From a virus, in the IMG/VR virus record IMGVR_UViG_3300028197_000095, positions 1 through 30,703 of that record: a stretch of DNA of 30,703 nucleotides. One strand, 5' to 3'. A model generated the notes under the pieces. The model was not told the origin of the DNA, made no database searches, and worked only from the letters and a program-made list of their open reading frames with translations. Below are positions 7,871-17,418 of the stretch, one piece after another. Positions within the stretch are counted from its first letter, which is position 1, and every line of letters begins with the position of its first letter. Made by a program: the position numbers and the translations under genes.

Positions 7871-7878
7871 GATAAATA
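7871..7878 (+). promoter_or_regulatory. T4-type late promoter of the curli-like operon
   Basis: GATAAATA begins 12 bases after the terminator. Predicted start is near 7884, with a leader of about 73 bases to ATG 7957. It is the only recognisable promoter before the eight-gene run to 14267, so those genes are probably late and co-transcribed. Confidence 0.8.
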
Positions 7879-7956
7879 GTTGTAAGAACTAGTAGGTAGG
7901 ACTACTTAGACAAACACATAGGAATTTTGCTATTCGGAATTGCAGAAGGTATACAT

Positions 7957-8253
7957 ATGGAAAACATTTTTGTTTTAATTGCTGATGTAGGGGCACCTAT
8001 TGCCGGTAGTCTGGTAATGGGTTTTTTTATATTTACAGTTATCAAGCAAATACTAAATGGCATTGTTGACCAGATTAAAACACTAACAATGTTCTGTGAA
8101 AGTTTACAAAATAGAGCAAGAACTATGAGTAACGAAATGATAAAAATAGATTTGCTTGTAAGTAGTGCATTAGAATTAAGTCCAGATATTGATAGAGTAG
8201 CAAGAGCAGAAAACTTTATTGAAGATGGCAAGGTAGATGCAAGGAGAGACTAA
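7957..8253 (+). CDS. Small single-span membrane protein with coiled coil (holin-like?)
   Basis: 98 residues from ATG 7957, chosen because GAAGG sits eight bases upstream; an in-frame TTG at 7927 has no such site. One hydrophobic segment (about residues 3-32, including DVGAPIAGSLVMGFFIFTVI) is followed by an amphipathic helical tail with Leu/Ile/Met heptads (about 45-75). The next gene has the same architecture and a similar segment, so the two look like paralogues or a hetero-oligomeric pair. It is the first gene of the curli-like late operon. The size and topology resemble small holin-like or UviB/BhlA-type phage proteins, but no specific family is proven. It could supply a holin function or anchor the export apparatus in the inner membrane; both are inference. 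Confidence 0.6.
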   Translation: MENIFVLIADVGAPIAGSLVMGFFIFTVIKQILNGIVDQIKTLTMFCESLQNRARTMSNEMIKIDLLVSSALELSPDIDRVARAENFIEDGKVDARRD

Positions 8254-8255
8254 GA

Positions 8256-8549
8256 GTGGAATTAGCACAATTAGTTAACGAGTACGGCTTTCCGATTGTA
8301 ATGATGGTCGGGTTAGGGTACTTTATATATTTTATTTGGCACTTTATATCAGAGCATATAGAGCCTGAAATAGAAAAAATGCACTTTGCATTAATTAGAG
8401 TCATTGATCAAACTAGAATGCTTGATCAAGATATGATAAGACTGCAACAAAAGGTAAATGTAGTTTTAGAGTATAGAGAACGCCAAAAAGTAATAGATGA
8501 CGCCGCTGAAAAGGCCGAACTAGAAACACTAAAGGCAAAAGGGAAATGA
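8256..8549 (+). CDS. Small single-span membrane protein with coiled coil, paralogue of the gene before it
   Basis: 97 residues from a GTG start two bases after the preceding stop; GGAGAG at 8243-8248 is a good ribosome site. A membrane segment at about residues 8-33 (EYGFPIVMMVGLGYFIYFIW) is followed by a long charged helix likely to form a coiled coil and a Lys-rich end. It aligns with the upstream protein over the membrane segment: both have G-x-P-I, then a GxFI/GYFI core, then an acidic or polar helix. The stop overlaps the csgF start as ATGA, so translation of the two is coupled. A holin-like or inner-membrane scaffold role is possible; nothing in the sequence proves either. Confidence 0.6.
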   Translation: MELAQLVNEYGFPIVMMVGLGYFIYFIWHFISEHIEPEIEKMHFALIRVIDQTRMLDQDMIRLQQKVNVVLEYRERQKVIDDAAEKAELETLKAKGK

Positions 8550-9052
8550 AAATGAAAATCTTATTTAACATGTGTGGAAATTCCCACATAATAAGGGGCA
8601 CAGTTCTTGCATGTATACTGTTAGTATCTACAAATGTAGTTGCTGATGAACTAGTTATGAAATTTAAGAATCCATCCTTTTCAGGAGTTGGAACTAGTAG
8701 TCACTATTTGACGATTGAGAATCAGCAAAAAAGTAGAAAAGACAAAATTAAAGATGATATAGAAGCAGAGCTATTGCGTTTAAAAAGAGAAGAAGAAAAT
8801 TCTACTCTTAATAAGTTTTTAAGGAACTTAGAATCAAGAATATATTCACAACTGTCTAAGCAGTTAGTTGACAATATGTTTGGTAATGAAGAAGGCGCCG
8901 ATTTCGGCAGTTTTATCATTGAAGGCAATACTGTAACTTATGAAAGAATAGTAGGTGAAGACGGAGTTGAAATGATTCGCTTAACTATTGTTGCATCAGA
9001 TGGCAGTACTACCACAATCGATATACCGGTTGGCGTAGGAAATATAGGATAA
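8546..9052 (+). CDS. csgF: CsgF-like curli assembly protein
   Basis: 168 residues with a Sec signal peptide (hydrophobic stretch around residues 18-32, cleavage probably after NVVA). The mature N-terminus, DELVMKFKNPSFSGVG, lines up with that of bacterial CsgF, including the F-x-N-P-x-F core. In characterised systems this segment plugs into the CsgG barrel and forms a second constriction. A Lys/Glu-rich helical middle is followed by a C-terminal beta region ending in DGSTTTIDIPVGVG, like the TSTIQVSG end of the E. coli protein. It is longer than E. coli CsgF (138 residues) because of the charged middle. It overlaps the previous gene by ATGA, and its stop TAA shares one base with the csgG ATG. 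In Escherichia coli CsgF couples export to nucleation at the surface. Confidence 0.85.
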   Translation: MKMKILFNMCGNSHIIRGTVLACILLVSTNVVADELVMKFKNPSFSGVGTSSHYLTIENQQKSRKDKIKDDIEAELLRLKREEENSTLNKFLRNLESRIYSQLSKQLVDNMFGNEEGADFGSFIIEGNTVTYERIVGEDGVEMIRLTIVASDGSTTTIDIPVGVGNIG

Positions 9053-10035
9053 TGAAACTAAACAATCTTTTACCTATCGTAGTTTTAGGCTTGATAAACA
9101 GCGGATGTGCTAGTTTGTCACTGCCGACAGATATCGTAAAAGACGAATGGTGCCAACCTAACTTTATGGAATGTATAGAAGATCCAGTACAGGTTGAATT
9201 ACCAACATATGAAAAGTTGAGACAGTTACCACCGGCAGAAAACATGCCAGTTGTAGCAGTATATCAATTTACAGATTTAACAGGGCAACGTAAACAGAAA
9301 GATAACATTGCCTTATTTAGTACAGCAGTTACACAAGGCGCTAAGCCTTTGTTAATTGATGCACTAAAGGCCGCAGGAGCAGGAGATACTGGAAACGGTA
9401 CCTGGTTCCGTGTGGTAGAAAGAGGACTTGGATTGGATAATCTTGTCAGAGAAAGACAGATAGTAAGATCCACGAGAGATGAGTATGCTAAAAAAAACGG
9501 CGATAAAACTAAGAATTCTCTAGAACCTATGCTTTTTGCAGGCATGATTCTAGAAGGTGGAATTGTCGGTTATGATAGCAACGTTGAAACAGGTGGTAAT
9601 GGCGCCAGATATTTAGGTATCGGTGGTAGTGCCCAGTATAGACGTGACTCAGTTGTGGTCTCTCTTCGTGCTGTTAGTACATTAACAGGCGAAGTTTTAC
9701 TCAACGTACAGACATACAAGACAATATTGAGTGTAGGCATGGGGGCAGACGTATTTCGTTTTCTCGACATGGATACAAAATTATTAGAACTTGAAACAGG
9801 GGTGACACAGAATGAGAGTGTTACTTGGGCAGTTCGAAGTGCAATCGAAGCCGCTACTTTGGCGATGATTGAACAGGGAGATGAACGCGGATATTGGGAG
9901 ATTAATTACCCACCAGAATGGGAAGAAGTAGAGACAATAGAATCTACTCCTATCCAGGACGCGGATGCAATACTAACTGACCCAGGCTCACGTGTAACTG
10001 ATGAAAGTTCGGAAAACAAAGGAGAAGTAAAATGA
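9052..10035 (+). CDS. csgG: CsgG-like outer-membrane curli export channel
   Basis: 327 residues, a strong match to CsgG, the nonameric lipoprotein pore that exports curlin subunits. A short signal sequence ends at NSGC-AS, with Cys19 as the likely lipidation site; position -3 is Asn, where Leu is usual. Conserved blocks include VVAVYQFTDLTGQ, ALFSTAVTQGAKPLLIDAL, a segment aligned with LERQGLQNLLNERK, GGNGARYLGIGGSAQYRRDS, STLTGEVLLNVQTYKTILS and DVFRFLD. In the constriction loop the Phe of E. coli CsgG (F56) is kept, but the Asn (N55) aligns with Leu, and the Tyr (Y51) with a charged residue. An acidic extension of about 40 residues follows the conserved domain. It overlaps the next gene by ATGA. 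Function as a secretion pore is very likely; gating may differ. Confidence 0.93.
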   Translation: MKLNNLLPIVVLGLINSGCASLSLPTDIVKDEWCQPNFMECIEDPVQVELPTYEKLRQLPPAENMPVVAVYQFTDLTGQRKQKDNIALFSTAVTQGAKPLLIDALKAAGAGDTGNGTWFRVVERGLGLDNLVRERQIVRSTRDEYAKKNGDKTKNSLEPMLFAGMILEGGIVGYDSNVETGGNGARYLGIGGSAQYRRDSVVVSLRAVSTLTGEVLLNVQTYKTILSVGMGADVFRFLDMDTKLLELETGVTQNESVTWAVRSAIEAATLAMIEQGDERGYWEINYPPEWEEVETIESTPIQDADAILTDPGSRVTDESSENKGEVK

Positions 10036-10757
10036 TTAATAATAAAAGATTGTTAGCAATGTTTACAGGCTTTGCTATGTTAATAAGTTTTGATTTAGCA
10101 TCAGCAGGTACAACAGATAACGAAATTTTACTTGATCAACAAGGTACAACTCTTACTTTAACAATTGACCAACAAGGTTACGGTAATAAAGTCGGCGGAA
10201 ACACAGGTATGACATCAGATTTTCTAATTACAGGTGCAACGGTTACATTTAACTTAGATCAAGTAGGTAACTTGAATAAGTTTTTTGGACCACTTATTAG
10301 TGACAATGCAACTATTAATGCTGTCTTCACAGGCAACAGTAATATTTGGGATTGGAACTTAGGTGCTAGTGGTAGTACAGACTATGCAAACTTTTTAGTT
10401 GACGTAGCCGGTGGCAGTAATACTTTTGATATTGATGTGGGAGCATCGGTATCGTCGGAACGTTTAAACTTTGATTTAGATATATTAGGTAGCAGTAATG
10501 TGTTTACCTCTATTGATATCGAAGTTGATGATGCTGTTTGGGACTTTGATATTACTGGAAGTAGTAATAACTGGGTAACGTCACAAACCGATGGGGCATA
10601 TCACAAAATGTTTGTGGTCCATGACGGTAGTGGTGGTAACTTCAGTTTAACTCAAAGCTCGGGCACATGTGCCACAGGTATTTCGTCATGTTATAGTGAG
10701 ATGAACCTAGATATTGATAGTGAAAATGCTACAGTTACGATCACACAAACAGACTAA
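10032..10757 (+). CDS. Curlin-like secreted repeat protein 1
   Basis: 241 residues with a signal peptide (cleavage probably after LASA). Two clear curlin-type motifs occur near the start, LTIDQQGYGNKVGG and FNLDQVGNLNKFFG, fitting the x5-Q-x-G-x2-N pattern of CsgA/CsgB. They are followed by about four looser units with G-x-S-N (TGNSNIWDW, GGSNTFDID, GSSNVFTS, GSSNNWVTS) in which the Gln is lost. The C-terminal end has two Cys (GTCATG, SSC) and finishes VTITQTD; the second curlin-like protein has a matching end. Placed directly after csgG with an ATGA overlap and a GGAG site, it is the obvious candidate for the exported substrate. Amyloid formation is inferred from the repeats. Confidence 0.75.
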   Translation: MINNKRLLAMFTGFAMLISFDLASAGTTDNEILLDQQGTTLTLTIDQQGYGNKVGGNTGMTSDFLITGATVTFNLDQVGNLNKFFGPLISDNATINAVFTGNSNIWDWNLGASGSTDYANFLVDVAGGSNTFDIDVGASVSSERLNFDLDILGSSNVFTSIDIEVDDAVWDFDITGSSNNWVTSQTDGAYHKMFVVHDGSGGNFSLTQSSGTCATGISSCYSEMNLDIDSENATVTITQTD

Positions 10758-11907
10758 TATTTTATCGGTATTCTTGTTGTGTTTATTAAGTTTTGGAGTT
10801 GATGCTAATATAGGCAATGTTTCAGAACTTAATGGCACACCAGGATCGATTGATAGAAAGTCAGGTGAGAATGTTGTAGCAGAACTTTCGACTACAATCG
10901 AAAGTCTTGATCAAGTAGAGACAACAAACGGTAGACTTAAAATACAGTTTGTTGACGACACACAGGTTAGTTTAACAGAACACACATACATGGAAATAAA
11001 CGAATACGTTTATGATCCAGATCCAGCAAAGAGTAAAATGGCTTTAAACTTTGTACAAGGTACAGCCAGGTTTGCTACCGGAGGTCTTGGACTTGTTCCT
11101 AAAGAGAACATTTTAATACAGACCCCAACAGCGACTATCGGCGTTCGTGGCACGGACTTCACGACCACCGTCGACGAATTAGGTCGCAGTCTAGTTATAT
11201 TATTACCAGATGAAGATTGCACAGACAAAGTAGCCTTAGAACAAGGTTGTGCTCCTAGTGGTAGTATAACAATTACAAACCAAGGAGGCACAGTTATACT
11301 TGATGAAGCATATATGAGTGCTATGGTGAGTACAGCAGAAACACCTCCTACTCCACCAGTTGTTTTATCTGGCATTGATTTGAATGTTATAGACAATATG
11401 TTTATTGTATCAGAGCCTGCAGAAATTAAAGAAGCAATACAAGAGCAAGTAGAGGAAAAGCAAGGAGTTGATTATCTTGCATTTACAGATTTAGACTTTG
11501 ATGCTCTAGAAGAGAACATACTCGAAGATGACAAAGAAGCAAACTTAGAATTCACAGAATTAGACATAAATTTTCTTGATGTTGATTTATTGCAAGACTT
11601 ATTAGAGATAATGGAAGTAAGTATTGATTTAGCAACAGCAGGTACTGGCGATGGTGGTGAGGGATTTAATGGTGCCAGTATTGTTGGTACAGCACCAGGG
11701 TTTGACAAAGAGACATCTTTTAACACAATAATAGACCAAGGTGGCGGAACAATATGGTTCTACAGAGATAACAATGGTATTATAAGTGTTAAAATACCAA
11801 TTTCAGCAGGTGCAAGGATAGACTCAGAAGTAGACGGCAAAACCGGAACAATTATTGTTAATGGTGGCGGCAGTATAAATATTATTATCAGACAACAGAG
11901 CGGATAA
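10726..11907 (+). CDS. FecR-domain periplasmic protein
   Basis: 393 residues from ATG 10726, overlapping the preceding gene by 32 bases; a TTG at 10714 is an alternative start. A signal peptide (ILSVFLLCLLSFGVDA) is followed by a FecR domain at about residues 30-175. Its marks are the early LNGTPGSIDRKSGENV block, VETTNGRLKIQFVDDTQVSL, NFVQGTARFATGG and the hallmark TPTATIGVRGTDFTTTV. The middle (about 230-300) is strongly acidic with Leu/Phe/Asp/Glu heptads. A C-terminal Gly-rich beta segment ends NIIIRQQSG. FecR domains often bind or sense in the periplasm and, from general knowledge, commonly neighbour CHASE2 cyclases in bacterial genomes; such a cyclase lies 3.5 kb downstream here. A scaffold or sensor for the export system is plausible but inferred. 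Confidence 0.8.
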   Translation: MLQLRSHKQTNILSVFLLCLLSFGVDANIGNVSELNGTPGSIDRKSGENVVAELSTTIESLDQVETTNGRLKIQFVDDTQVSLTEHTYMEINEYVYDPDPAKSKMALNFVQGTARFATGGLGLVPKENILIQTPTATIGVRGTDFTTTVDELGRSLVILLPDEDCTDKVALEQGCAPSGSITITNQGGTVILDEAYMSAMVSTAETPPTPPVVLSGIDLNVIDNMFIVSEPAEIKEAIQEQVEEKQGVDYLAFTDLDFDALEENILEDDKEANLEFTELDINFLDVDLLQDLLEIMEVSIDLATAGTGDGGEGFNGASIVGTAPGFDKETSFNTIIDQGGGTIWFYRDNNGIISVKIPISAGARIDSEVDGKTGTIIVNGGGSINIIIRQQSG

Positions 11908-11910
11908 TAA

Positions 11911-13407
11911 ATGAATCCAGATTACATATTACCATATGTTAAAAAAGCAAAATCATATGGTAACAGAGTACTTATTGTATCTCAAGACGAAGAACTAGAT
12001 CTTGCACAGTCCCTTGCTTCTGCAGGATTAGAAGTTAGGTATCTAAAAACATACGACATAATTCTTACCGCAAACCCAGAGTACAGAAACGACTTAGTGT
12101 GGGCTCACACAGTTATTTTCTTTGGGCACACAGTACAAATAGACTCCGGGGTAGCATTTAATCTAATATGCAAAACTCCTCTACAAGAAAATACTCCTCA
12201 TGAAGTGTTTAGCGGAACTTGGAAACAGTATAGTGAATCAAGGCTAGCAAGTTTTCATAATGTTAAAGAAGCATGGTCAGAGATAGTGAATGTCTGGCCA
12301 GAATTACCATACAAGCCGTACACTAATGATATTGGTATAGTTTATGCAGGTGCAGAGCATGGAATATCAGTTGCACATATCTGCACATGCGAGTTAGTAG
12401 ACTATGTAGAGATGTTGCGTAAAACAGGTGCTAAAAAGTTTTTGTGCTATAACTTAATGGAAACAGCACAGTTAGACAGTATATTACGAATTCAGTTATT
12501 AGCAACAGCAATGCCGGGCATAGATTGTAAGGACTTTATATATGTTACTGCGGCATCTAATATGGAATCAAGTTGGAAACAATTTTGTATAGAAAATCAA
12601 ATAGAAAATCCTATTAGTATAATGTCTGGTAATTGGTATGATCAAACATGGTGGAATACGTCATGGAATCCGTTAGATGAAAATATAGATGTTCCTGATT
12701 TTGACCCAGCCTACTTGCCGCCAAATACTTTCTTATGCTTTAATAATGTTCCAAGATGGCATAGGACAAAAATAGTTACAGAGTTAGTGCATAATAATTT
12801 ACTAGAACACGGACTAGTAAGTTTGCGTAATAATAATTCTATACATTTTGATGAACTAGATCTCGAACAAACAAGACCAGAAGCAACACAATGGTTAAAA
12901 GATAATATACCATTAAGTATTGATGACACAGATGCTAGGCTTAGGCATATGGCATTTCCTGATACCACAGATGTAGCATTGCATAGAGATACAAATTTTT
13001 CAATAGTAACAGAAACAATTTTTCAAAGGGAGAACACAATACCGCCCGACAACAGTACAGACTTTGTTAAAGGTGGCTTTTTCTTTACAGAAAAAACATA
13101 TAAACCGTTTTGGTTTAAACAAGCATTTGTACTTGCCGCAGTTCCAGGTATGCTACAATATCTTAAATCTATTGGTTGGCAGACGTTTTCACCCTACATC
13201 GACGAGAGCTATGACAACGAAATAGACGACAACAAACGTTTAGAAATGATTATTAATGAAGTAAAACGGCTAAATAGTTATACAGATGAGCAGTGGCTTA
13301 GTTGGAGGCAAGGAGTCCAGCCAGCAATAGAACATAATGCACAAAGAATTCGTAGAGAACACTCGGGCGATCTAACTACTTCTCAGTGGGAGGAACTATT
13401 CAAATGA
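11911..13407 (+). CDS. Glycosyltransferase-like protein of the marine-phage type
   Basis: 498 residues, no signal peptide or membrane segment, so probably cytoplasmic. The C-terminal third carries FSIVTETIF, FFFTEKTYKPFWFKQAFVL, VPGMLQYLKSIGWQTFSPYI and DESYDNE. The E-K-T-x-K-P block with a following pro-gly-x-leu and GWQTF resembles the acceptor end of putative glycosyltransferases common in marine T4-like phages. The N-terminal part (VLIVSQDEELDLAQSLASAG) could be a Rossmann-like fold. I cannot identify donor or acceptor. It starts three bases after the FecR gene and overlaps the next curlin-like gene by ATGA, so it is translated with the secretion genes. It might modify an exported protein or a host surface glycan; this is inference. 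Confidence 0.55.
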   Translation: MNPDYILPYVKKAKSYGNRVLIVSQDEELDLAQSLASAGLEVRYLKTYDIILTANPEYRNDLVWAHTVIFFGHTVQIDSGVAFNLICKTPLQENTPHEVFSGTWKQYSESRLASFHNVKEAWSEIVNVWPELPYKPYTNDIGIVYAGAEHGISVAHICTCELVDYVEMLRKTGAKKFLCYNLMETAQLDSILRIQLLATAMPGIDCKDFIYVTAASNMESSWKQFCIENQIENPISIMSGNWYDQTWWNTSWNPLDENIDVPDFDPAYLPPNTFLCFNNVPRWHRTKIVTELVHNNLLEHGLVSLRNNNSIHFDELDLEQTRPEATQWLKDNIPLSIDDTDARLRHMAFPDTTDVALHRDTNFSIVTETIFQRENTIPPDNSTDFVKGGFFFTEKTYKPFWFKQAFVLAAVPGMLQYLKSIGWQTFSPYIDESYDNEIDDNKRLEMIINEVKRLNSYTDEQWLSWRQGVQPAIEHNAQRIRREHSGDLTTSQWEELFK

Positions 13408-14267
13408 ACATAGATGAAAAATTAAACAATATGAAACCAAAGGATACCCCTTTATTAGTCCTTGGGTACTTACTATTAGGCATGATGTTACTTTTGCCAT
13501 TAACAGCAAAAGCCGATAATACAAACAGCATAATCATTAGTCAAGTTAACAATGAAGATACTGATGACTTAATACTTACTATCTCCCAAGAGGGTTATGA
13601 TAATAAAGTTAATCTTTCTCTTGCACACGATGATAATACTATTACAATTACTCAACAAGGTAACAACCATGAAGTTAGTTGGGTTGAACAGTGGGGGTCA
13701 GGCATAAACTGGGGCGGCGACTTAGACGGCGAAAACAACACTTTGACCTTTCGTCAAAATTGTTCTCGTGGTACCAGTTGTGGGAAATCAGATATAGGAT
13801 TTCACATTCAAGGAGACTCCAACACAGTTAAATATGGGCAAGGAGTTTATATGGCGAGCTCAACCAATACTGCATTTATATATGATTCTGACGAGGGCGG
13901 AAACCATACAGCAACGTTAGACATTCACGGTAACGGCAACACTCTTTCTGGATATCAACGAAATGGAAACCTAAATGCTTACAGTGGGCATACTTCACGT
14001 TTATACCTGTACGCAGACAATAACACACTTTATGCCGCTCAAGAAGCCGACGGAGCAAAGACACTAAATTATACCAGTAACGTTGATGGTAGTGTTGGCA
14101 ATATCATACAATCACATAACGGAGGCCACACAGCCACAGTAGTGTTGAACGGCAATTATCCGACCAACATAACTTTACTTCAACATTCAGCAACAGCACA
14201 GTCATACTCATTGACACAAAATTGTCTTACATCAAGTGGTTGTAGTATTTCAGTTACACAAGATTAA
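13404..14267 (+). CDS. Curlin-like secreted repeat protein 2
   Basis: 287 residues from ATG 13404, which overlaps the previous stop (ATGA) and has a strong GGAGG at 13389-13393; a GTG at 13386 is less likely. A signal peptide (VLGYLLLGMMLLLPLTAKA) is followed by curlin-type units LTISQEGYDNKVN and ITITQQGNNHEVSW, then weaker ones (IQGDSNTVKYGQG, IHGNGNTLSGYQ, YADNNTLYAAQ). Cys pairs occur in the middle (NCSRGTSCG) and near the end (NCLTSSGC). The ending YSLTQNC..GCSISVTQD parallels that of curlin-like protein 1. It is the last gene of the operon. It is probably a second substrate of the CsgG channel, perhaps nucleator versus major subunit as for CsgB and CsgA; that split is a guess. Confidence 0.72.
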   Translation: MNIDEKLNNMKPKDTPLLVLGYLLLGMMLLLPLTAKADNTNSIIISQVNNEDTDDLILTISQEGYDNKVNLSLAHDDNTITITQQGNNHEVSWVEQWGSGINWGGDLDGENNTLTFRQNCSRGTSCGKSDIGFHIQGDSNTVKYGQGVYMASSTNTAFIYDSDEGGNHTATLDIHGNGNTLSGYQRNGNLNAYSGHTSRLYLYADNNTLYAAQEADGAKTLNYTSNVDGSVGNIIQSHNGGHTATVVLNGNYPTNITLLQHSATAQSYSLTQNCLTSSGCSISVTQD

Positions 14268-14275
14268 CTAAGCGG

Positions 14276-14304
14276 TTGACACAGTACAATTTCTGTACTA
14301 TAAT
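14276..14304 (+). promoter_or_regulatory. Consensus sigma70-type promoter
   Basis: TTGACA (14276-14281), a 17-base spacer and TATAAT (14299-14304): a perfect consensus promoter in an otherwise late-promoter region. The expected start is at about 14310-14312, essentially at the ATG of the next gene. It implies early expression, or expression by unmodified host polymerase. Confidence 0.88.
14283..14299. repeat. Inverted repeat in the promoter spacer (possible operator)
   Basis: AGTACA and TGTACT form perfect 6-base arms around a 5-base centre, filling the space between the -35 and -10 boxes. The position is ideal for a dimeric repressor to block polymerase. No candidate regulator is visible in the window. 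It could also be chance in AT-rich DNA. Confidence 0.55.
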
Positions 14305-14311
14305 ATAACTT

Positions 14312-14473
14312 ATGAAACACATGATCAAGTGGTTAAAAATAACTGCTGGTATAAACTTATATCTATCCGTGATAATGACACTAGTGCTAATAGCCTTAGT
14401 TGCGGATATCGTTTTAGATACATATTGGCATAGTAATGCTTATATAGAACAATTTAAGAATAGTGATAACTAG
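14312..14473 (+). CDS. 53-residue single-span membrane protein, probably leaderless
   Basis: A short reading frame from ATG 14312 to TAG 14471-14473: MKHMIKWLKITAGINL, then a hydrophobic stretch (about residues 16-35, YLSVIMTLVLIALVADIVL), then a polar tail DTYWHSNAYIEQFKNSDN. Lys-rich residues before the segment predict the N-terminus in the cytoplasm and the tail outside. The ATG sits seven bases after the TATAAT box and has no Shine-Dalgarno, so the message should be leaderless or nearly so. The stop region overlaps the start of the next gene. The function is unknown; small early membrane proteins in phages often act on host envelope processes, but nothing here shows this. Confidence 0.6.
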   Translation: MKHMIKWLKITAGINLYLSVIMTLVLIALVADIVLDTYWHSNAYIEQFKNSDN

Positions 14474-14813: not shown

Positions 14814-14821
14814 GATAAATA
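14814..14821 (+). promoter_or_regulatory. T4-type late promoter (GATAAATA)
   Basis: It sits just after the weak hairpin; the predicted start near 14827 gives a leader of about 49 bases to the lipoprotein gene at 14876. Confidence 0.75.
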
Positions 14822-14875: not shown

Positions 14876-15157
14876 ATGAAAAATTTGTTATCATTCTTCA
14901 GTTTAATCGCTTTATCTAGTATAGTAGGGTGTGCCTCAGTTGGAGGTGCCTGGAATGCTGGTACAGAGATTGTTACAGGAACAGTTGACTCTGTTGTGGG
15001 CGGAGCCGCAACAATGGCAGTTGCTATTACTGATGATGTGAGAAACATTGCAGACGTAACTATTGATACAGCACAAGGTGTTGTTAAAACAGTTGCAGAA
15101 AATGTTGATGCACAAACTGATGAACTACAAAAGGACGATACACCTGAAAAAAAGTAA
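14876..15157 (+). CDS. Small outer- or inner-membrane lipoprotein
   Basis: 93 residues with a clean type II signal peptide: MKNLLSFFSLIALSSIVGC, lipobox I-V-G-C, lipidated Cys19. The mature part is Ala/Val/Thr-rich with possible amphipathic repeats (IVTGTVDSVVGG, VRNIADVTIDTAQGVVKTVA) and ends in a charged tail. A strong ribosome site (AAGGAGA) lies seven bases before the ATG. It has its own late promoter and lies between the curli-like genes and the cyclase. It might be an accessory lipoprotein of the secretion apparatus or a spanin-like partner for lysis; no partner is identifiable and neither role is shown. Residue +2 is Ala, which in enterobacteria allows outer-membrane sorting. Confidence 0.75.
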   Translation: MKNLLSFFSLIALSSIVGCASVGGAWNAGTEIVTGTVDSVVGGAATMAVAITDDVRNIADVTIDTAQGVVKTVAENVDAQTDELQKDDTPEKK

Positions 15158-15192: not shown

Positions 15193-15279
15193 ATGTCCGC
15201 CTCAGAGCTTGTTAAACTTTTTAAACAGAATGCAAAAAAGTTAGAAGCATACTGCAAGGCAAATCCTAAAGAATGTTGA
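15193..15279 (+). CDS. 28-residue small protein
   Basis: ATG 15193 to TGA 15277-15279 encodes a Lys-rich amphipathic helix followed by a tail ending YCKANPKEC with two Cys. An AAGGAC ribosome site lies just upstream, and a strong terminator follows ten bases after the stop, which frames it as a real last gene of the lipoprotein transcript. Too short for homology by eye. It could instead be non-coding 3' leader sequence. Confidence 0.45.
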   Translation: MSASELVKLFKQNAKKLEAYCKANPKEC

Positions 15280-15288
15280 AGAACAACG

Positions 15289-15312
15289 AAAGGGCAGACA
15301 ACTGCCCTTTTT
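15289..15312 (+). terminator. Intrinsic terminator before the cyclase gene
   Basis: A perfect 9-bp stem (AAAGGGCAG / CTGCCCTTT) with an ACAA loop and trailing T residues. It insulates the cyclase gene from upstream transcription. Confidence 0.9.
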
Positions 15313-15347: not shown

Positions 15348-15355
15348 GATAAATA
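15348..15355 (+). promoter_or_regulatory. Late promoter with zero-length leader (cyclase)
   Basis: GATAAATA ends five bases before ATG 15361. With the usual T4 late spacing, transcription starts at or within a base of the A of the ATG. No ribosome site is visible. Confidence 0.78.
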
Positions 15356-15360
15356 TTACT

Positions 15361-17418
15361 ATGAAATGGTTGTACAGCGGATATGCTGTGGTATTGTCTA
15401 TTGTGTTACTACTTGCTTTAAGAGTAGCAGACCCAACGGCATTACAAAGTTTTCGAAGTCAAGTATTTGACAGTTACCAACAACTAGACACTATAGTAGA
15501 TAGTAACGATGTTGCTATTATTAATATAGGTGAAAAAAGTTTACAAGCATTAGGTCAATATCCTTTTCCTAGGACTACTTATGCTCAGTTAATTTACGAC
15601 ATCAGGCAAAAGAATCAAGGCATATTAGGATTTACTATTATGTTTCCTGAGGCAGATAGATTCGGTGGCGATGAGGTATTTGCATCATGGATAAAAGACA
15701 ACGGGATAGTTTTATCTCAGACCCCAAGTTCAAAAGGAGTAAAGAGTACAGGTCCTCACATTGGTACAGGAACGATAGGCCCTTTACCCGCACAGGACTT
15801 TGTGCTAACATGGCCCAATCTAGTAACGAACATAAGCCAACTAGAGACTATGGCGTTTGGTATTGGAGTTAATGCTTCAGCACCACAACCTGACAATCAA
15901 ACAAGAACTTACCCACTAACAATAGGCGTTGAAGGAAAACTATATCCTAGTTTTGCTATTGAAATGCTTAGAGTAAACACAGGAAAGCCAAGTTATATAA
16001 TTAAAACTACAGAAGTTGGTATCAGTGAAATTGCTGTTCCACCCTATGAGCCAGTTGTAACACAACCAGATGGAACATCCTATATACGTTTCAATAATAA
16101 GTTTCAAGAAGTAGAATACACAAATGCAGACAGTTTGCCTAATATGGGCGGCAAGTTTGTAATACTTGGAGTTACAGCAGAAGGTATTGCAAACCCTGTG
16201 CCTACTCCAATCGGACTCCTCTATCCACAGCATGTACAAGCTCATATGCTACAGAACTTAATAAGTGGTACCAATATAACCCGTAGCCAGTTAAGTGCTG
16301 TTACAGAGCTTCTGTGTGCGTTGTTGAGCATGATATTAATTGCTCTAGCAATATATAAGTTGCCCGTTTGGGCTGGATTAGTAACTACAGTTACTCTTAT
16401 AAGCGGAATAGTGTACTATAGTGTAAGTTCTTACACAGCAAACTTGATATTATTTGATGCAACGTTTCCAGCAATAGCCAGTTTCTTAATATTTTCACAA
16501 GCAAGTTTTAACAACTTCTGGATACAGTTTAAACTAAGAGCAGAGATACAAAAACAATTTGCCGGTTATGCCTCACCCACAGTTGTGCGTATGCTACAAG
16601 AAAATCCAGACTTAATTAAACAAGGTATGAAAAAAGAAGTTAGTATATGCTTCTCAGATTTGCGTGGCTTTACCCCATTGGGAGAAAGTTTTGGTGATGA
16701 TGTTCAAGGACTAACAAAAATAATGAATGGCTACATGGATGCTATTACACAGCCTATACTTGATGCAGACGGAATGGTTATTAAGTATATCGGCGATGCA
16801 AGTATGCACATACACAATGCACCAATGGACGATCCAGATCATCCTGCAAGTGCTGTGAAAACAGGAATACTAATGCTTAGAGCAGTAGAGGAATTCAATG
16901 ATAAAATTGTTAAAGAAGGTAGACCGCCGGTTGGTATGGGTGCTGGTATTAATACAGGGCTCGGTTATATTGGGGAAATGGGTTCTACTGCAAGACATTC
17001 ATATGACATACTCGGAGACGCAGTTAGTACTGCCGCAAGGATAGAAAGTAAGTGTAAGGAATATGGTTGTCTATTACTTGTAGGTGGCGATACATACAAG
17101 CATACTAAAAATAATTTCTTTTATCTAAAAGTAGATGATCTAGCAGTAAAAGGAAAGACTGTGGGCATTGAAATATATACTGTACTTGATGTTAAACTAA
17201 ACAAGTATGCAGGTGCAAGACAACTACACGAAGACATGCATATGAATTATCGTAAGCAAAATTTTGATAAAGCAATTAAATTATGCAATCAACTACATGA
17301 TGCATTTGAAGGTAAGATGTCAGGGTATTATGATATGTGGATCGAACGTTGCGAATTCCAAAAAACACAAACACTTCCTAAAGATTGGGACGGTGTGTTT
17401 ATAGCAACATCTAAGTAA
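15361..17418 (+). CDS. CHASE2-domain class III adenylate cyclase
   Basis: 685 residues. After one N-terminal membrane span (about 4-21) a periplasmic CHASE2 sensor runs to about 305 (LQSFRSQVFDSYQQL, ALGQYPFPRTTYAQL, MFPEADRFGGD). Three spans lie at about 312-390. The cytoplasmic cyclase domain covers about 425-615: SICFSDLRGFT with metal Asp433, KYIGD with Lys475 and metal Asp479, and YDILGDAVSTAARIE with Asp549 and Arg560. The Lys475/Asp549 pair predicts ATP as substrate, hence cAMP. At the place of the transition-state Asn there is Ser556, so activity could be low or altered. A helical tail of about 70 residues follows. It has its own late promoter and an upstream terminator. The domain call is firm; signal and phage benefit are unknown. 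Confidence 0.92.
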   Translation: MKWLYSGYAVVLSIVLLLALRVADPTALQSFRSQVFDSYQQLDTIVDSNDVAIINIGEKSLQALGQYPFPRTTYAQLIYDIRQKNQGILGFTIMFPEADRFGGDEVFASWIKDNGIVLSQTPSSKGVKSTGPHIGTGTIGPLPAQDFVLTWPNLVTNISQLETMAFGIGVNASAPQPDNQTRTYPLTIGVEGKLYPSFAIEMLRVNTGKPSYIIKTTEVGISEIAVPPYEPVVTQPDGTSYIRFNNKFQEVEYTNADSLPNMGGKFVILGVTAEGIANPVPTPIGLLYPQHVQAHMLQNLISGTNITRSQLSAVTELLCALLSMILIALAIYKLPVWAGLVTTVTLISGIVYYSVSSYTANLILFDATFPAIASFLIFSQASFNNFWIQFKLRAEIQKQFAGYASPTVVRMLQENPDLIKQGMKKEVSICFSDLRGFTPLGESFGDDVQGLTKIMNGYMDAITQPILDADGMVIKYIGDASMHIHNAPMDDPDHPASAVKTGILMLRAVEEFNDKIVKEGRPPVGMGAGINTGLGYIGEMGSTARHSYDILGDAVSTAARIESKCKEYGCLLLVGGDTYKHTKNNFFYLKVDDLAVKGKTVGIEIYTVLDVKLNKYAGARQLHEDMHMNYRKQNFDKAIKLCNQLHDAFEGKMSGYYDMWIERCEFQKTQTLPKDWDGVFIATSK

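Follow-up and report, generated by a model that had tools for sequence, protein, structure and literature searches.

An early-type sigma70 promoter abutting a conserved membrane microprotein gene within the late curli island of a T4-like marine phage

Pelagimyophages and Melnitz-type methylophages carry curli (csg) genes, and the curli pore genes of SAR11 and OM43 phages have no known role. The authors of the Melnitz study proposed that the phage curli pore acts in lysis timing (PMC9004378). Late genes of cyanomyoviruses are preceded by the consensus NATAAATA (PMC2984593). Leaderless messages are documented in alphaproteobacteria, with 375 mapped in Caulobacter (PMC4117421). T4 Spackle is an early periplasmic inhibitor of the gp5 lysozyme (PMC7677548).

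The window, a 30.7-kb linear viral contig, encodes T4-like tail proteins as well as a curli island with the CsgF, CsgG, curlin-like, FecR and adenylate/guanylate cyclase genes known from the pelagimyophages and Melnitz-type phages. CsgF, CsgG, FecR and the CHASE2-cyclase were identified by profile matches, while the curlin-like assignments were made from a weak repeat match together with position. The gene order in the curli islands is curlin, SM, TM104, lipoprotein and cyclase, where SM and TM104 denote two small membrane protein genes (Table 1). At the head of the curli operon, two neighboring genes for small membrane proteins (7927–8253 and 8256–8549) both match phrog_18771, and their products look like paralogues. 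The 498-aa protein (11911–13407), encoded between FecR and the second curlin-like gene, has no family match and is present in some relatives only. The CHASE2-cyclase (15361–17418) is also matched by the Pycsar cyclase models in PADLOC (E 9e-16), which probably reflects similarity of the catalytic domain only.

Table 1 Coordinates of SM, its promoter and the flanking features in the window.
Feature	Position	Strand	Evidence
Late-promoter box GATAAATA before curli operon	7871..7878	+	ATAAATA 39-114 nt ahead of first gene in 8/8 relatives
Late curli island: CsgF, CsgG, curlin-like, FecR, 498-aa protein, curlin-like	8546..14267	+	PF10614, PF03783, PF04773
Consensus sigma70 promoter TTGACA-17-TATAAT	14276..14304	+	12/12 match
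Inverted repeat AGTACA-N5-TGTACT, operator-like, in promoter spacer	14283..14299	.	Subset of relatives only
SM, 53-aa single-span membrane protein, putatively leaderless	14312..14473	+	pN/pS 0.17 over 36 codons; 69 related loci
TM104, 104-aa protein, two membrane helices and a third helix	14463..14777	+	AlphaFold2 mean pLDDT 85
Late-promoter box GATAAATA before lipoprotein gene	14814..14821	+	ATAAATA at lipoprotein start in 39/40 distinct upstream regions
93-aa lipoprotein, signal peptide with lipobox, Cys19	14876..15157	+	Constant SM partner
Hairpin terminator AAAGGGCAG-ACAA-CTGCCCTTT	15287..15312	+	Folding z -5.5; same hairpin also listed on minus strand
Late-promoter box GATAAATA before cyclase gene	15348..15355	+	At -13 from ATG in most relatives
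CHASE2-adenylate/guanylate cyclase, flanking late gene	15361..17418	+	PF05226, PF00211

The promoter of SM consists of TTGACA (14276–14281), a 17-nt spacer, which lies within the 16–18 nt that define the early sigma70 promoters of T4-like phages, and TATAAT (14299–14304). It is the one perfect sigma70 promoter in the window, against 0.06 expected from dinucleotide shuffles. Conservation is a stronger test than these shuffle statistics, as promoter and ORF recur jointly over tens of contigs, and the arrangement is not due to chance. Among the curli-island loci L002–L057 with upstream sequence present, all except L023–L026 and L036 show a promoter with 10–12 of 12 consensus positions and a 16–17-nt spacer, followed by the ATG after 6–12 nt with no ribosome site between. 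Abutting promoters are not confined to SM, since a DNA helicase gene in L100, L106, L110 and L131 likewise has a perfect sigma70 promoter 5–7 nt from its ATG. With those of the helicase gene included, about ten perfect promoters besides that of SM stand 5–8 nt from an ATG in these phages, which suggests that early promoters of this abutting and probably leaderless type are common in them.

In L137, although SM is lost, the lipoprotein gene is still preceded by an ATAAATA box and by a perfect sigma70 promoter. L018 (105–272) and L049 (101–283) have identical 80-nt upstream regions and different SM C-terminal halves, as if recombination had occurred with a breakpoint in the conserved start of SM. 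Many contigs (L006, L008, L018–L021, L038, L045 and L049–L051) start within about 250 bases upstream of SM, which suggests that assemblies break at this shared stretch.

The genes on either side of the SM unit are preceded by a different signal. The window holds 11 copies of GATAAATA, a sequence that agrees with the cyanomyovirus late consensus, against 2.1 expected, and no shuffle reaches 11. The copies lie mostly directly upstream of gene starts; one each precedes the curli operon, the lipoprotein gene and the cyclase gene, and none precedes SM or TM104. The T4-type TATAAATA was rejected as the late box; with one copy in the window it is below chance, and GATAAATA is the enriched form. In relatives, ATAAATA stands near the cyclase start in 23 of 31 distinct upstream regions, and it was found before SM in 0 of 40 (a count drawn mainly from the curli-island group) and before TM104 in 0 of 35. 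This pattern indicates that the late operons flank an early-type unit made up of SM and TM104. The initial annotation had proposed such a unit for SM; the assignment is well supported by the promoter sequences, which also show the early-in-late arrangement to be conserved across relatives. In the hydrolase-group relatives, an ATAAATA late box abuts the SM ATG in place of the sigma70 promoter.

SM begins with an ATG at 14312, seven bases past the −10 box, and its stop codon ends at 14473. The product has one strong hydrophobic stretch at residues 17–35, which leaves about 18 residues after it for a predicted periplasmic tail, or fewer in the 43-aa relatives. Over 36 codons pS is 0.70 and pN 0.12, and over codons 2–9 the values are 0.91 and 0.002. 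These ratios indicate selection at the protein level, and an incidental ORF was rejected on this basis. The unusually constant start region might otherwise have pointed to an RNA or DNA element that happens to contain an ORF, a reading that we regard as highly improbable: the constancy is at the amino-acid level, with synonymous sites saturated and residues 2–9 hardly changing, and a search of Rfam gave no match. A search for tRNAs found none. As the search seed contained MKHMIKWL, the motif was retested in loci found via the lipoprotein alone, and [MV][KR]H[MQ]IKWLK was present in 12 of 14 distinct loci, L137 and L153 being without SM. Seed bias was thus rejected as the source of the constant N-terminus.

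Codon 1 is taken as the start because L138 has GTG at this position and no methionine at codon 4. No Shine-Dalgarno-like stretch was found upstream of the SM ATG in the window. Among the relatives, a ribosome-site-like stretch is missing wherever a sigma70 promoter abuts the ATG, and six that lack such a promoter have one (L036, L058, L062, L064, L069 and L070). As ribosome sites are confined to relatives without an abutting promoter, SM is probably leaderless. On this and on the plain features of the locus, namely the promoter with its arms, the position of the ATG, the missing ribosome site and the 53-residue product with one span, our results agree with the initial annotation.

The same annotation had read the inverted repeat in the spacer as the operator of a repressible switch. 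Its 6-bp arms, AGTACA (14283–14288) and TGTACT (14294–14299), have a length that shuffles of such a spacer reach with p about 0.01. Arms of at least 5 bp occur in 10 of 28 distinct SM spacers, against 4 of 37 perfect promoters found elsewhere in these phages, and arms with a shuffle p<0.05 in 8 of 28 against 1 of 37, both counts being uncorrected for shared descent. Arms of the AGTAC type moreover persist in loci with diverged flanks that share about 50% identity. This enrichment speaks for an operator, but the majority of distinct SM spacers lack arms, with 5 of the 28 carrying the AGTAC type and 4 an AGCA type, and the repeat is kept in some relatives only. A search for AGTAC-N7-GTACT in 22 records found it at SM promoters and at two further places, both in coding sequence, and at no other promoter. 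A regulon sharing the repeat was rejected on this search of the 22 records, and no known repressor can be named. The sequences thus weakly support the arms as a repressor operator, and we lean slightly toward an unregulated strong early promoter whose arms are lineage-specific sequence. This concerns the arms alone and is compatible with any of the functions of SM considered below.

TM104 starts with GTG and overlaps the 3′ end of SM, and its relatives are present in nearly all curli-island loci. L033 and L041–L046 have an additional small ORF between SM and TM104 that may be a TM104 paralogue. The hairpin terminator stands after the lipoprotein gene. A 28-aa mini-ORF at 15193 was rejected as a conserved gene, as it occurs in the nearest relatives only. 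Searches of SM, TM104 and the lipoprotein against Pfam, PHROGs, NCBIfam and PADLOC gave best E-values of 0.0047 or worse and no family match, and a structure search with TM104 returned no neighbor at E<=0.001. The lipoprotein model is of low confidence (pLDDT 54).

The membrane microprotein is kept in 69 viral loci or contigs, an outcome that bears out the small ORF noted at first; it was found neither in cultured phages nor in bacterial genomes. Its association with csgG and csgF is not obligate. Most close relatives have the SM unit within a curli island, and distant phages lacking curli genes still encode SM followed by the lipoprotein. The pair stands directly after an Rz-like spanin gene in L061, L069, L070, L135, L136 and L138, across from a PF07486 cell-wall hydrolase gene in L060, L065–L068, L142–L152 and L154, and after a class 3 lipase gene in L058. 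SM lies downstream of a lysozyme gene, tail-lysozyme-like, in L023–L026. The contexts of L063, L064 and L141 hold no lysis gene, and L139 and L140 have a cyclase gene upstream.

The distribution bears on an early proposal that SM is a repressible early switch preparing the envelope for the curli secretion genes. The placement of an early-type unit inside a late-type curli island agrees with such a role. However, the SM–lipoprotein pair exists in phages that have no curli genes, and two cultured phages that do have them, HTVC008M and Melnitz, lack SM, so that we consider this role improbable.

The pairing with the lipoprotein, which persists outside curli islands, and its position beside spanin, hydrolase, lipase or lysozyme genes elsewhere favor a role in lysis. 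In the explanation that we rank first, tentatively and with somewhat less than even confidence, the stretch would hold the promoter of a short transcription unit, expressed early by a T4-like marine myovirus, together with the first gene of that unit. The host RNA polymerase, carrying the main sigma factor, would use the consensus promoter, and transcription would begin at the ATG or a few bases from it, giving a leaderless message for SM. SM would be inserted in the inner membrane with its N-terminus in the cytoplasm, and the two-span TM104 would be made next from the overlapping frame. Transcripts from the late boxes would supply the curli operon upstream and the lipoprotein and cyclase downstream. 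SM and the lipoprotein may be an old inner-membrane and lipoprotein pair, belonging to the envelope module of the phages, that sets the timing of host lysis in the manner of an antiholin or a spanin accessory, and in phages with curli islands the membrane part of the pair would be expressed early. The neighbors of SM fit the lysis-timing proposal for the curli pore and do not prove it. Several points weigh against a lysis function: lysis effectors are usually late and the SM promoter is early, the three proteins match no family and TM104 no known structure, the lipoprotein is poorly modeled, and some of the contexts listed above have no lysis gene or have the cyclase. In the window itself no lysozyme gene lies closer than 5 kb, and the one at that distance, on the opposite strand, is as similar to tail lysozyme domains as to endolysins.

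A role in superinfection exclusion ranks second and appears less likely. Here the early membrane proteins might, by analogy with T4 Imm and Spackle, block the DNA entry or the tail-lysozyme action of a second phage, and the lipoprotein would work at the outer membrane like T5 Llp. The early promoter, the small inner-membrane proteins with a lipoprotein partner, and the tail-lysozyme-like gene close to SM in L023–L026 would all suit this role. It is at odds with the late box of the lipoprotein gene and with the late box of SM in the hydrolase group, where expression would come too late to exclude, and no known family of Pfam, PHROGs or NCBIfam was matched.

In our best reading, SM and the lipoprotein would be a previously undescribed envelope pair that probably acts in lysis timing or superinfection exclusion and is expressed early in this lineage. 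More speculatively, the two might form a device of the envelope in marine T4-like phages, made up of a lipoprotein and a microprotein of the inner membrane whose N-terminus is almost invariant. A swap of the promoter abutting the start codon would have changed its timing between early and late, and it would work with spanins or endolysins in some phages and with the curli pore and cyclase in others. An early-type gene in a late island, together with a lysis-linked lipoprotein, offers a testable tie of curli islands to lysis control or exclusion, and a promoter-swapped device, if true, would connect the phage curli islands, so far unexplained, with the control of lysis.

Among the described systems, HTVC008M and Melnitz are annotated with no gene between the last pre-cyclase gene and the cyclase. 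T4-like early promoters share the consensus sigma70 hexamers, and the window promoter differs from them by its abutting ATG. T4-like late promoters are matched by the boxes of the island, and the difference is the early-type unit wedged between them. As in alphaproteobacterial leaderless mRNAs, the ATG of SM is at or adjacent to the predicted transcription start, although SM is phage-encoded and predicted from sequence alone. T4 Imm and Spackle and T5 Llp are early, small superinfection-exclusion proteins of the membrane or envelope; no family match was found for the SM unit, its lipoprotein has a late box, and in some phages SM has one as well. The size, single span and lysis neighbors of SM would fit a holin or antiholin. 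Two-component spanins (Rz/Rz1) likewise combine a small N-in inner-membrane protein with a lipoprotein, and SM shares with them the adjacent lipoprotein partner and, in distant relatives, the lysis-gene neighbors. Its predicted periplasmic tail is nevertheless too short for the long coiled coil of the Rz type, and several phages have a separate Rz-like spanin gene beside SM.
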